A stretch of 24,484 nt of DNA from a virus, in the IMG/VR virus record IMGVR_UViG_3300034280_001138, positions 1 through 24,484 of that record; one strand, written 5' to 3'. Shown here piece by piece: positions 11,435 to 21,010 of this stretch; position 1 is the stretch's first letter, and each line of letters begins with the position of its first letter. Both the position numbers and the translations under genes were made by a program. The notes under the pieces are model-generated. The model saw nothing but the letters and a program-made list of their open reading frames with translations. It had not been told where the DNA came from and searched no databases.

Positions 11435-13732
11435 TTAGCTATTGATGTAAAGACCGGCATCCAATATTGTATCTAAGGCTGTCACAGGACTGTACGTTTC
11501 AGCATCAATTTGGACAAGTGTATCTACGTTTTCGAGTGGGGTGCCGTTTCGGTAATCACCGCCGTCAACAAATCCAAACTCAAATTCATTAGTATATTCA
11601 CTAAGAGGCTTATCAATAATTCCAAATTTAGCGTCTTGAAGGATCCTCGGATCTAAGTTAAATAACTTATTTACTAATCCAGCAAAACGGTTTGTACTAT
11701 TTGCTACAAGCCCTGTTCGACTTAAATTACCTTTCCCATCACGACGAATATTATCGTTTAGCGCCATTGTTGTTAGCGTCGGATTAAAATTAGCCGCTTG
11801 CTCTGGATTATTGCCCGCTCCAATAATTGTCTGGTTTCCTGACCAGCCAAGATTTTGCGAATCAAAAATATAACGCTCCGTGACTTCTTTTAAACGTTGA
11901 CTTTCTTTGTCAAAGTTCTTATAAAAGGTTTCTAATCCAGTCCCTACAGGTTGGTCACTCGGTTCTAGCAGCCAAGTGTTTACGTATTCGTGCGGTTTTA
12001 AATTAGACACCGTGCAGTACCCTGCTGTTGTATCCGCAAATGGATAAACAATCGTAAAGGTATCTTTAGAAGGCACACTCGTTATTGTGTACTCCCCTTC
12101 AATCGCGTTACCGCTTGTAAAATCAAGCTGAATACGTTTATTAGCCAATAGTCCGTGATTAGGCGCAGTAACCGTAATATTTGGCCCAGACTGTTCGTAG
12201 CGTGCATTAATTGAGATGGCACCACCACCTTCGTCGTGGATCAATGCCCACATTGAAGCGTAAATGTGTTTACACCACCGCATCTGGTAATAAAGTAAGT
12301 TTTGAAATGAAAATCGCTCAATATCTTCATATTCAGGCAACTGGTAAAAGTTATTTATTGTCGTATAACCAATATCTTGGAAAACGCCGGGAGAATCACG
12401 AGTCTCTGTAAAAGTACCGTCAGGATTTAAGATAAGACCTGGTTTTAAATTTGCTAGTTGTGTTTGAGGAAACCTACGCTGCCTAAGTTGACTATATAAG
12501 TTGTAATTATCGCGCTTACTAAAGTCTTCGCAAGAACACTGCCAACGTAATTCAGTTGTTAGATAGCGTCCAATTTGAAAACCTCTGTGTGCAGGTACAA
12601 CTGTTGCTGTAGCACCGTTTGTAGTCTGTGCTGCGTAGCTATCTTCTTTTTGGAAGATTAATTCATTCGTAGTAGCGTCAGATCCAGTAACCGTATAGCC
12701 AACATAATCTAAATAATTGAACCCACGGAGAAGACGGTTGACTGTAGCGTCCCCTGAGGTCACGCCACTTGTAATTGTTGTAATCTCAAGTACGGTCGCA
12801 CTGGTAACAGTGACTTCGTAGCGGCCAGAGGACACAAGTCCTGTCCCAATGTCTAAATAAACCGTATTGCCAGTAGAAAGGCCGTGATTTTCGGTGCAAG
12901 TGAGGGTTACGGTCGATCCTGTGCGGCTGTAAGTAGCAGTAATGCCAGGATCGCGTTCAATTACACGATCAGTCATTCGCTCACCTGGCAATAACGCTGT
13001 TTCAGTGGGCAAAAATCTTAATGCAACTCGAATAAAGCGCCAGCGTGTGTCTGTAAATACTGTTGAAACGGCGTAAGCAACGTTTCCACTTGTTGTCAAC
13101 GGAGCTACAGCAGTAACTGTAAAAGTATTTTGTGTTTTTTCGGTAATTGTAAGCGTATTGTTTACGGCAGTGCCTGATAAAAATGCTAAATAGACGCTGT
13201 CTCCTGGAAATAGACCGTGATCAGCTCTAGTAACAGTGATTGTAGTACCGCTTTGAACATATACTGCTTCTACTGAGTCACCTAAATAACGTACACCAAG
13301 AATTGGAAGTCCGTAATCATAGAAAGTGAACGAATTGGTATCGCGCATACCAACAAGTTGCTCTCCAATGTCTTGATTTGTTGACGGATACGTGAATAGA
13401 CGTGCCGGAACAAAAACTCCTGGATACTGCTGAAAAGAAAAATAAAGCCGATAGTCGCCTCTAACAGGTCGCTCAACATCATTCGAGCCTAAAGCACTTT
13501 GCGTGATTGAATAAAGTTCGTAACCACGGCGCCAGCGAGCCCACAGTGAATCGTGGTTGTAAAACCGAACTTCACTCTCAATTTCTGGAGAAAGCGACGG
13601 GTCAAACGGATTTTTAATTTCTGCTCTTTTATCTGTTCCGTTGAACTTTGTGAGACTAGAAAATTTCTTATCGAGCTTCCCGGTAAAAGGACTGCCCTTT
13701 GATCTAGAGAATCCGCCTACACCAAAAGGCAT
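11435..13732 (-). CDS. Large tail structural protein with HGL repeats and a SWIM-like Cys/His motif, 765 aa
   Basis: The largest gene in the window. The start (MPFGVGGFSRSKGSPF) and aromatic-rich body (YELYSITQSALGS, DYRLYFSFQQYPGVFVPARL) mark a virion protein. Three beta-sandwich-like repeats occur at about residues 160-218, 271-331 and 514-575, each built as I/V-T-V-T...HGL..G..VYL/IQL.F.SG, then YT/YE, then TFT/LEI.....T..G. Between the second and third lies C399-x-C401-EDF, and C487-K-H489-IYA follows 86 residues later; this CxC...CxH set with the F and HI.A context matches the SWIM zinc-binding pattern. A C-terminal part has helices (NFDKESQRLKEVTERYIFD) and ends TILDAGLYINS. It is a tail tube/baseplate-type or neck protein; the exact role is unknown. 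Confidence 0.75.
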   Translation of the reverse strand: MPFGVGGFSRSKGSPFTGKLDKKFSSLTKFNGTDKRAEIKNPFDPSLSPEIESEVRFYNHDSLWARWRRGYELYSITQSALGSNDVERPVRGDYRLYFSFQQYPGVFVPARLFTYPSTNQDIGEQLVGMRDTNSFTFYDYGLPILGVRYLGDSVEAVYVQSGTTITVTRADHGLFPGDSVYLAFLSGTAVNNTLTITEKTQNTFTVTAVAPLTTSGNVAYAVSTVFTDTRWRFIRVALRFLPTETALLPGERMTDRVIERDPGITATYSRTGSTVTLTCTENHGLSTGNTVYLDIGTGLVSSGRYEVTVTSATVLEITTITSGVTSGDATVNRLLRGFNYLDYVGYTVTGSDATTNELIFQKEDSYAAQTTNGATATVVPAHRGFQIGRYLTTELRWQCSCEDFSKRDNYNLYSQLRQRRFPQTQLANLKPGLILNPDGTFTETRDSPGVFQDIGYTTINNFYQLPEYEDIERFSFQNLLYYQMRWCKHIYASMWALIHDEGGGAISINARYEQSGPNITVTAPNHGLLANKRIQLDFTSGNAIEGEYTITSVPSKDTFTIVYPFADTTAGYCTVSNLKPHEYVNTWLLEPSDQPVGTGLETFYKNFDKESQRLKEVTERYIFDSQNLGWSGNQTIIGAGNNPEQAANFNPTLTTMALNDNIRRDGKGNLSRTGLVANSTNRFAGLVNKLFNLDPRILQDAKFGIIDKPLSEYTNEFEFGFVDGGDYRNGTPLENVDTLVQIDAETYSPVTALDTILDAGLYINS
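11999..13258 (-). repeat. Three copies of an HGL beta-repeat in the 765-aa tail protein
   Basis: Copies lie at residues about 160-218, 271-331 and 514-575; a fourth, diverged copy is in the neighbouring 262-aa protein. The shared pattern is T.VTVT...HGL..G..VYL.F.SG, then a YT/LT-type strand, then TFT or similar, then T..G. The repeats are spaced, not tandem, and DNA identity between copies is low. Confidence 0.65.
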
Positions 13733-13741
13733 TTTTAACGA

Positions 13742-14530
13742 TTAATAGTAGCCGCCTTGCGCAGTGACATAAAATCCATTGGTAAGAGCAGTCGTTCCAC
13801 TATAAGAAGCGTATAAAGCTTGCCCACGCTTCAGCATCATGCCACGAATTTTAGGTGAAGTTGCGCTGTTGGCTGTGTAGAAATTTGAACCCGCTTGTAC
13901 AGTTGGGTGATTGATCAAAGGAAGAACATTATATTCAGTAAGACTGTAATACTGATGGTCGTAAGTAGCTGGAATACTGACAGTAAACAGGGGAAAAAAT
14001 TGGTTAGTGTTTGTAACTGATCCGGTTTCAACCAGGTAAATACAAAAATCCAAAGGCAGCCGGCACTCAACGTTACCTGTAATCGGTCCAGAGATGCTCG
14101 GAATAGTGCCAGTGAACGTGGTTGGTGTTACTGCAGTGACGTCGACCGCCTGGTCAATTGGAGTGGTTCCACTGCTATACGAAGTAAAGTTTAAGTAGAC
14201 CTTCTGTCCAACCTGAACATTGTGACCGCCGCTAATAGTGACTACAACATTGGTGCTGTTAGCTGAGTAAGTACCAGTAACAGCAGAAGTCGCATCAATA
14301 AATTCGGTAGTACGTTTTGAATACTGGAACCAAATCTCATCAATATAAGCACCACTAATCGACGTGTCTGTCTGTGCAGAATCCACGTCAAAAATTTTGG
14401 TCGCATTTCCAACCGCAGTTGGCACCAAGCTGGTTGAAAACGCCTGACCTGAAGCCACAGTAACTAGGCTAGAAGTAGTCGCCGGACGATCAACGAGAAG
14501 CGGTTGCTTGTTTGAGCTAGACGATGACAA
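13742..14530 (-). CDS. Virion structural protein with one HGL-like repeat, 262 aa
   Basis: A Ser/Thr-rich, beta-type protein. Residues about 86-156 carry one copy of the same repeat that occurs three times in the adjacent 765-aa protein: TNVVVTISGGHNVQVGQKVY, then LNFTS, then VDVTAVTPTTFTGTI. The C-terminal part (ATYDHQYYSLTEYNVLPLIN and KIRGMMLKRGQALYASYSG) looks like a receptor-fold or connector domain. The start is TTG with an AGGGAG Shine-Dalgarno sequence ending 12 bases upstream; no ATG fits better. It probably assembles next to the 765-aa protein, from which it is separated by only 9 bp. Confidence 0.65.
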   Translation of the reverse strand: MSSSSSNKQPLLVDRPATTSSLVTVASGQAFSTSLVPTAVGNATKIFDVDSAQTDTSISGAYIDEIWFQYSKRTTEFIDATSAVTGTYSANSTNVVVTISGGHNVQVGQKVYLNFTSYSSGTTPIDQAVDVTAVTPTTFTGTIPSISGPITGNVECRLPLDFCIYLVETGSVTNTNQFFPLFTVSIPATYDHQYYSLTEYNVLPLINHPTVQAGSNFYTANSATSPKIRGMMLKRGQALYASYSGTTALTNGFYVTAQGGYY

Positions 14531-19867: not shown

Positions 19868-21010
19868 TCACTCAACGATGGTGAAAGCAGTGGTAATGAA
19901 GTCCTTATTCAGGTTGGCGAAACCAGCGTACAGCTGCCAAATCAGGATGATAAAGCGGCTGAAGTCATCATTGTTATTGATGAGGACCTGAGCATTGGGA
20001 CCACCAATACCTACACCGACAGCCTGAGGACCGAAGAACAGACCAGCCGGAGTGGTGCGGGTTGCAGCACCGCCGCCACTGCCGATGTCGACGGAGATAC
20101 TCTTGTCGGGGAAGTTGGTGGATTCGAAGAAACGCACACCTTCAAACACGAAGCCAGAAGGCATGACAGGTTCGCCGGCCACAAACTGAGCTTGGCCGAA
20201 CTGACCACCACCATACAGGGCAGCATTGGGGGCCATCATTCCCATCAGGGGATTAGGAACGCCAGTGCCAGGATAGCGGGCCACTTCGCGGAAGCCCTGG
20301 TCAGCACGCAGATCCTTCATGAAAGAGGGATCAGCGATACAACGGTAGTAACCGTCAGCAAACACGGGGGTGTTACGCTTACGCAGCTGCTTTACAACCT
20401 CAAGAAGGTCAGTCTTGACGTTGAACTTGAACCGCTCAGAAGCGTACTCGGTAGCGGTATAGTTGTTGAGGGCAGTTGCGGAAGATTTGGTCTTACCGTT
20501 GGGGTAGTAGTAACCACCCTGGCTATCAGAAGCAGCGCCACGAGACTCAGCTTTGAACAGCTCGTCCAGGAACACACGGTCGCGCCAGCGGCGATAGTCG
20601 TCCAGTAGGGTCAGCGAACCGATGGACTGGTGGAACATATTAAGGTTCCCGGTGTCCAGCAGCAGACGCTGAGCGGTCATCAGAGTCTCACGAGCAATCT
20701 TAAAGGTGCTCGGGAGGTTGGTGTTGTTCGGGTCAGCGGGACCGGTGTACTCACGCAGAGACACCAGCACCTTGTCCTTTACGATAGACCGGCTATTAGC
20801 AGTACCGATGGTTTGATCCTGGGTACGCTCACGGCTAGTCTTCGTTCCAGGGCTACCCCAGAAACGATAACGGTCAAGTTGAACGGTTTGACCCGGCTGT
20901 TTGGTGAAGTCGTGGACGACTACTGGCTCGCAAGCCATCTCCACGATATAAGCTGGATGGGGGCGGTACAGCTCCGCACCCAACAGCTTGGGAAAGTCGT
21001 TCTCCTGATC
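19868..21010 (-). CDS. Major capsid protein, 3' exon (N4 gp56/DUF4043-like), start missing
   Basis: The frame carries the phage capsid signature as I know it: GAELYRPHPAYIVEMACEPV, HDFTKQPGQTVQLDRYRFWG, ERTQDQTIGTANSRSIVKDK, REYTGPADP, then RLLLDTGNLNMFHQSIGSLT and LLDDYRRWRDRVFLDELFKA, with DGYYRCIADPSFMKDLR later. This family (N4 gp56, HK97-fold) forms icosahedral heads. The reading frame has no ATG: it continues upstream to about 21010 (DQENDFPKLLG precedes GAELY) and then meets a group I intron, with a TGA in frame just inside it. Only a TTG at 20983 would be available without splicing, and it lacks a ribosome site. The 5' exon must lie upstream of the intron. Coordinates of the exon start are approximate. 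Confidence 0.85.
   Translation of the reverse strand, partial: DQENDFPKLLGAELYRPHPAYIVEMACEPVVVHDFTKQPGQTVQLDRYRFWGSPGTKTSRERTQDQTIGTANSRSIVKDKVLVSLREYTGPADPNNTNLPSTFKIARETLMTAQRLLLDTGNLNMFHQSIGSLTLLDDYRRWRDRVFLDELFKAESRGAASDSQGGYYYPNGKTKSSATALNNYTATEYASERFKFNVKTDLLEVVKQLRKRNTPVFADGYYRCIADPSFMKDLRADQGFREVARYPGTGVPNPLMGMMAPNAALYGGGQFGQAQFVAGEPVMPSGFVFEGVRFFESTNFPDKSISVDIGSGGGAATRTTPAGLFFGPQAVGVGIGGPNAQVLINNNDDFSRFIILIWQLYAGFANLNKDFITTAFTIVE

Follow-up and report, generated by a model that had tools for sequence, protein, structure and literature searches.

A SWIM-like CxC...CxH motif split by a conserved insert in a probable tail or connector protein of phages related to S-EIV1

Results

The gene and its surroundings

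The stretch of DNA analysed here, referred to as the window, comprises 24,484 nucleotides of viral sequence (IMG/VR record IMGVR_UViG_3300034280_001138, positions 1 to 24,484). An open reading frame on its minus strand (11435..13732) encodes a probable tail or connector protein of 765 residues, which has relatives in IMG/VR and a homologue, AHV82237, in the Synechococcus phage S-EIV1. The adjoining upstream gene (13742..14530, minus strand, 262 residues) has a homologous counterpart in S-EIV1, immediately upstream of the gene of AHV82237, with 28% identity and an E-value of 5e-11 in a single comparison. The major capsid protein gene (19868..20983, also on the minus strand) matches phrog_1357, and its product is 73% identical to the S-EIV1 capsid protein. 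The gene order runs from the capsid gene to the 765-residue gene and then to tail-fibre-like and endolysin genes, and the gene next to that of the 765-residue protein has a minor-tail match. From this position after the capsid gene and before the tail-fibre-like and endolysin genes, and from the match of its neighbour, the 765-residue product is likely to belong to the tail or the connector; its own PHROG tail matches are due to the beta domains.

Three such domains interrupt the chain. The first (residues 156–221; 13070..13267, minus strand) matches phrog_32294 and is modelled as strands with high pLDDT. The second (residues 274–320; 12773..12913, minus strand) also shows strands and matches E1_FCCH below the cut-off, and the third (residues 510–585; 11978..12205, minus strand) matches phrog_4636 and, over residues 519–564, End_beta_barrel at 34.5 bits against a cut-off of 35. 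The original prediction had spoken of a beta-repeat protein; this describes the window protein, with its three matches, but not the family as a whole, as the S-EIV1-type relatives that bear the motif are without beta domains. The E1_FCCH/End_beta_barrel-like domain occurs once more in the upstream gene (13997–14317); the S-EIV1 clade is without it. The third copy is matched at 41.6% by minor tail proteins of three Prochlorococcus phages (MED4-184, P-HS2 and MED4-117), a sequence likeness which suggests that the domain moves between tail genes.

The S-EIV1 homologue is a hypothetical protein of 527 residues (KJ410740, 67456–69039). It was first found by a weak match over residues 343–496 (25% identity, E = 3e-7), shares 26% identity with the window protein and is without the three beta domains. 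The capsid identity, the homologous upstream gene and this tail-protein homologue together place the window, on the grounds of sequence, in a phage related to S-EIV1. Divergence within this one block of genes is uneven: set against the corresponding figure for the capsid protein, the identity of the tail protein points to much greater divergence in the tail gene.

The motif and its insert

The motif sits between beta domains 2 and 3, in the part of the protein common to the S-EIV1 homologue. Its first half is C399-S-C401-E-D-F404 (12521..12538, minus strand) and its second C487-K-H489-I-Y-A492 (12257..12274, minus strand). Both were read in the open reading frame at the residues originally predicted, and the 85 residues between C401 and C487 (402–486; 12275..12529, minus strand) were likewise as predicted. 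There are five cysteines in the protein (279, 399, 401, 487 and 573), three of them within the motif; C279 and C573 fall in stretches absent from the S-EIV1 clade. The candidate ligand set is three cysteines and one histidine, with no fourth cysteine common to both clades. When the residues of the protein were shuffled 20,000 times, a CxC with a CxH further along the chain arose in 0.04% of cases. AHV82237 keeps both halves, CSCQDF at 266 and CKHIYA at 418, and 149 residues separate its ligand pairs.

The length of the insert is characteristic of the clade. It is 85 residues in all 101 window-clade proteins listed and, at the loci fetched through the capsid protein (see below), 85 residues in 30 of 31 and 86 in the other; in the S-EIV1 clade it is 142–173 residues (159 of 159 proteins listed). 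The insert of the window protein holds KPG and PGVF, which are shared with S-EIV1, and in the alignment the inserts of the two clades are related, with P422, G432, G449, D470 and their neighbours common to both. These common residues indicate that the insert is, in its sequence, a conserved segment with a clade-specific extra part and no random loop.

Conservation of the four ligands

Several scans, the first of which gave 48 loci in IMG/VR, yielded 267 distinct relatives from 384 loci. The longer lists, that of the capsid search described below included, hold the best 80 of 256, 552, 209, 215 and 598, two of these totals being lower bounds, and distant relatives are therefore sampled less well than close ones. 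Of the 267 distinct proteins listed, 264 have both ligand patterns, and the other three (L017, L047 and L050) are incomplete at sequence ends. Conservation among relatives, on which the original prediction had been made to depend, was thus checked and held. Some of the search patterns included CKH; a motif-free pattern also found 253 of the proteins with two halves and the three that are cut off, but not the other 11.

Loci were also fetched by way of the capsid protein (the best 80 of 598, with L203 left out), in order to escape the bias of the motif-bearing search patterns; the contigs overlap in part with the earlier ones. Among these 79 loci, 32 reach the gene: 31 have both halves and one stops at the contig end before the second half. 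The remaining 47 gave no match; in these, less than 9.6 kb of sequence follows the capsid gene. A scan of cellular genomes found four loci, all of them in metagenome bins, which are labelled Bacteroidetes, bacterium and Aliivibrio. We take these loci for phage contigs and do not adopt the bins as hosts.

In the 40 distinct rows of the first scan (window included), C399 and C401 are present in all 39 rows that cover them, and C487 and H489 in all 37. A492 is also found in 37 of 37 covering rows; across both clades it is kept in at least 90%, and some members of the S-EIV1 clade have C or S instead. Conservation within the window clade is extensive, with 126 of 765 positions invariant in these 40 rows (positions covered by at least 20 rows). 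A more telling comparison is the alignment of 116 proteins from both clades, between which identity is about 24–30%: only 21 columns are invariant, and all four ligands are among them, together with D403 in the first half and K488 and Y491 in the second. All four ligands are kept by the 61 distinct S-EIV1-clade members among those listed, and the basic residues beside the ligands, R396, R407, R485 and K488, are also kept. Elsewhere in the protein there is a tryptophan- and arginine-rich stretch, WARWRRGYELY (residues 64–74, approximately 13511–13543), of which W64, R66, W67, R68, R69 and G70 are invariant in 31 proteins of the two clades.

Comparison with the SWIM profile

The published SWIM signature is CXC...Xn...CXHXXA (PMC6316741), and the window protein agrees with it in its extended form, as CKHIYA ends in A492. 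The Pfam profile for SWIM is PF04434, with a curated cut-off of 19.6 bits. Searched with PF04434, neither the window record nor S-EIV1 gave a match. Scored uncut, the window protein reaches 11.1 bits, with the match covering the CxC half (396–406), and the S-EIV1 homologue 6.9 bits, with the match covering the CKH half (417–426); both are below the cut-off. Matches at E up to 1 were found for 33 of 37 uncut relatives, with a best E of 0.026, which is unconvincing. The uncut proteins fall under the cut-off because their halves are split by 85–86 or 142–173 residues.

When the two halves were joined into one peptide with the insert left out, the window peptide scored 22.1 bits, above the cut-off. 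The two S-EIV1-clade peptides with a bit score shown, that of S-EIV1 itself (16.5) and one other (17.7), are both under it. At E up to 10, all 20 joined window-clade peptides (best E = 2.6e-5) and all 20 from the S-EIV1 clade (best E = 1.9e-6) match SWIM. None of 20 shuffles of the joined halves that kept the ligands in place matched, and nor did any of five control peptides consisting of single halves or of one half with another cysteine stretch. The joined halves match and the ligand-keeping shuffles fail, so the context of the motif, judged by profile, is SWIM-like beyond the ligands alone. The resemblance to SWIM put forward in the original prediction is thus borne out, in the conserved ligands and in their surroundings. 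No iron–sulfur family is among the families listed for the 40 joined peptides.

Predicted structure and co-variation

The SWIM fold has the order strand–strand–helix. The model of the window protein has a mean pLDDT of 53.5, with values under 50 at the motif. A better model was obtained for L053, an S-EIV1-clade relative without the beta domains (116 aligned sequences; mean pLDDT 77.4, pTM 0.75), whose C266, C268, C418 and H420 align with C399, C401, C487 and H489 of the window protein. In this model strands 257–260 and 263–266 lead into C266-S-C268, and a helix (419–427) begins at C418-K-H420. The pLDDT at the motif is moderate, 79 in the block 261–270 and 71 in the block 411–420, and the predicted order of secondary structure agrees with that of SWIM.

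Fold searches with the L053 model gave no match at E up to 0.001 in the PDB or BFVD. The weaker matches, among them HerA, F1-ATPase, a ribosomal protein and the JBD30 baseplate, are to a small barrel at residues 115–262 (best Z 6.4), which may be a common arrangement and does not include the motif. The JBD30 baseplate chain matches weakly (Z 5.5, rmsd 3.0, 78 residues) and only over this barrel before the motif. SWIM structures are absent from the L053 fold matches, but as these barely covered the motif region, their absence carries no weight. Against the sequences of solved structures, the family profile gave one weak match (4g7w_A, E = 0.073) and the joined halves none.

Co-variation between the two halves is not enriched, with 0 top-L pairs against 1.9 expected in one analysis and 1 against 2.8 in another. 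With 34 and 37 effective sequences, respectively, these alignments are too small for the null result to count against contact of the halves.

Discussion

We consider it reasonably probable that the two halves form a SWIM-type metal site which is split by an insert and acts as a structural staple in the tail or connector protein. The chain would run through two strands to CxC, leave for 85–86 residues (142–173 in the S-EIV1 clade) and return to a helix starting at CxH. The ligands of a single metal ion, most likely zinc, would then be three cysteines and one histidine. Such a site, if part of the virion as we suppose, would fasten the insert at its base to the conserved core, so that lineages could differ in the length of the insert and still keep the core unchanged. 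By analogy, a structural role is plausible, as metal sites are known at the tail tip: in JBD30 gp50, Cys147 and Cys156 and, a long way further along the chain, Cys238 and Cys245 surround a putative metal, which may lend stability to the baseplate (PMC11445458). The original prediction had suggested a structural metal site that may lock the tail, or else a captured domain. Recent capture is unsupported, as two clades that have diverged as far as these have both carry the motif; an ancient capture may have taken place.

The tail-tip sites also provide the basis for a different reading, that the metal centre bound by the four residues is of a different kind, such as an iron–sulfur cluster or iron as in lambda gpL and its relatives, and that the likeness to SWIM is convergent. 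Metal–sulfur sites of this general kind include, besides that of JBD30 gp50, the iron–sulfur clusters of lambda gpL and of a gene transfer agent, both cited in PMC11445458 (see also PMC11945409). We think this unlikely, as the tail-tip sites are described with cysteines, whereas here a histidine is the fourth ligand, and as the SWIM profile recognises the context in all 40 joined peptides, for which the families listed include none of the iron–sulfur type.

It appears similarly improbable to us that a SWIM finger is present but serves mainly to bind DNA or a partner protein, such as the end of the genome within the tail channel or an adjacent protein of the tail, rather than as a staple. Cellular SWIM domains are described as binding DNA or protein (PMC4381286), and the conserved basic residues beside the ligands would suit such a role. 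The fold searches with L053, on the other hand, were without significant match in either database and there is no sign of a channel or a DNA-binding place, while the conserved insert between the halves suits a structural site equally well. That the four residues are conserved for some other cause, such as a disulfide or packing, with no metal bound, is very improbable: the extensive invariance within the window clade and the lack of support from co-variation for contact of the halves would agree with it, but so few columns are invariant across both clades, all four ligands included, and the SWIM context is so specific that we give it little weight.

Returning to the split SWIM-type site, a more far-reaching version, which we put forward tentatively and think rather less than an even prospect, is that the finger is a fixed part of the virion in phages related to S-EIV1, a clasp whose two halves hold the clade-specific insert. 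Such a clasp could serve as a metal-dependent latch, opening in the course of assembly or ejection. As far as open-licence papers show, no SWIM site would have been described in a virion protein before; in these papers we found no report of a SWIM zinc finger in a phage or virion, and a passage of PMC5512222 on SWIM concerns SWI2/SNF2 ATPases.

If the preferred reading is correct, the site would be a metal staple of a new type beside the known tail-tip metal–sulfur sites. SWIM is known from cell proteins, and its strict conservation in a probable phage tail protein would give a handle on the ‘hypothetical’ protein of S-EIV1. The split between the ligands carries a more general warning, that SWIM fingers with long inserts escape profile searches.

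The sites of JBD30 gp50 and lambda gpL resemble that of the window protein in being conserved cysteine sites in a tail protein, and in JBD30 the pairs are also far apart. The JBD30 site differs in having four cysteines, whereas a histidine joins three cysteines in the SWIM context of the window protein, and the searches run found no sequence relation to these tail-tip sites. AHV82237 of S-EIV1 is a homologue, with the same place after a homologous gene, the same four ligands and common invariant columns, but it is shorter, has no beta domains and has a longer stretch between the pairs. With the SWIM zinc finger itself (PF04434; Shu2/SWS1 and E. coli GluRS), the window protein shares CxC...CxHxxA, a context recognised by the profile once the halves are joined and, in the model of a relative, the order strand–strand–helix. 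It differs from the known SWIM fingers in lying in a probable virion protein and in being split by an insert longer, in both clades, than the 24 residues of the zinc site of E. coli GluRS, CxCx24CxH (PMC4381286).
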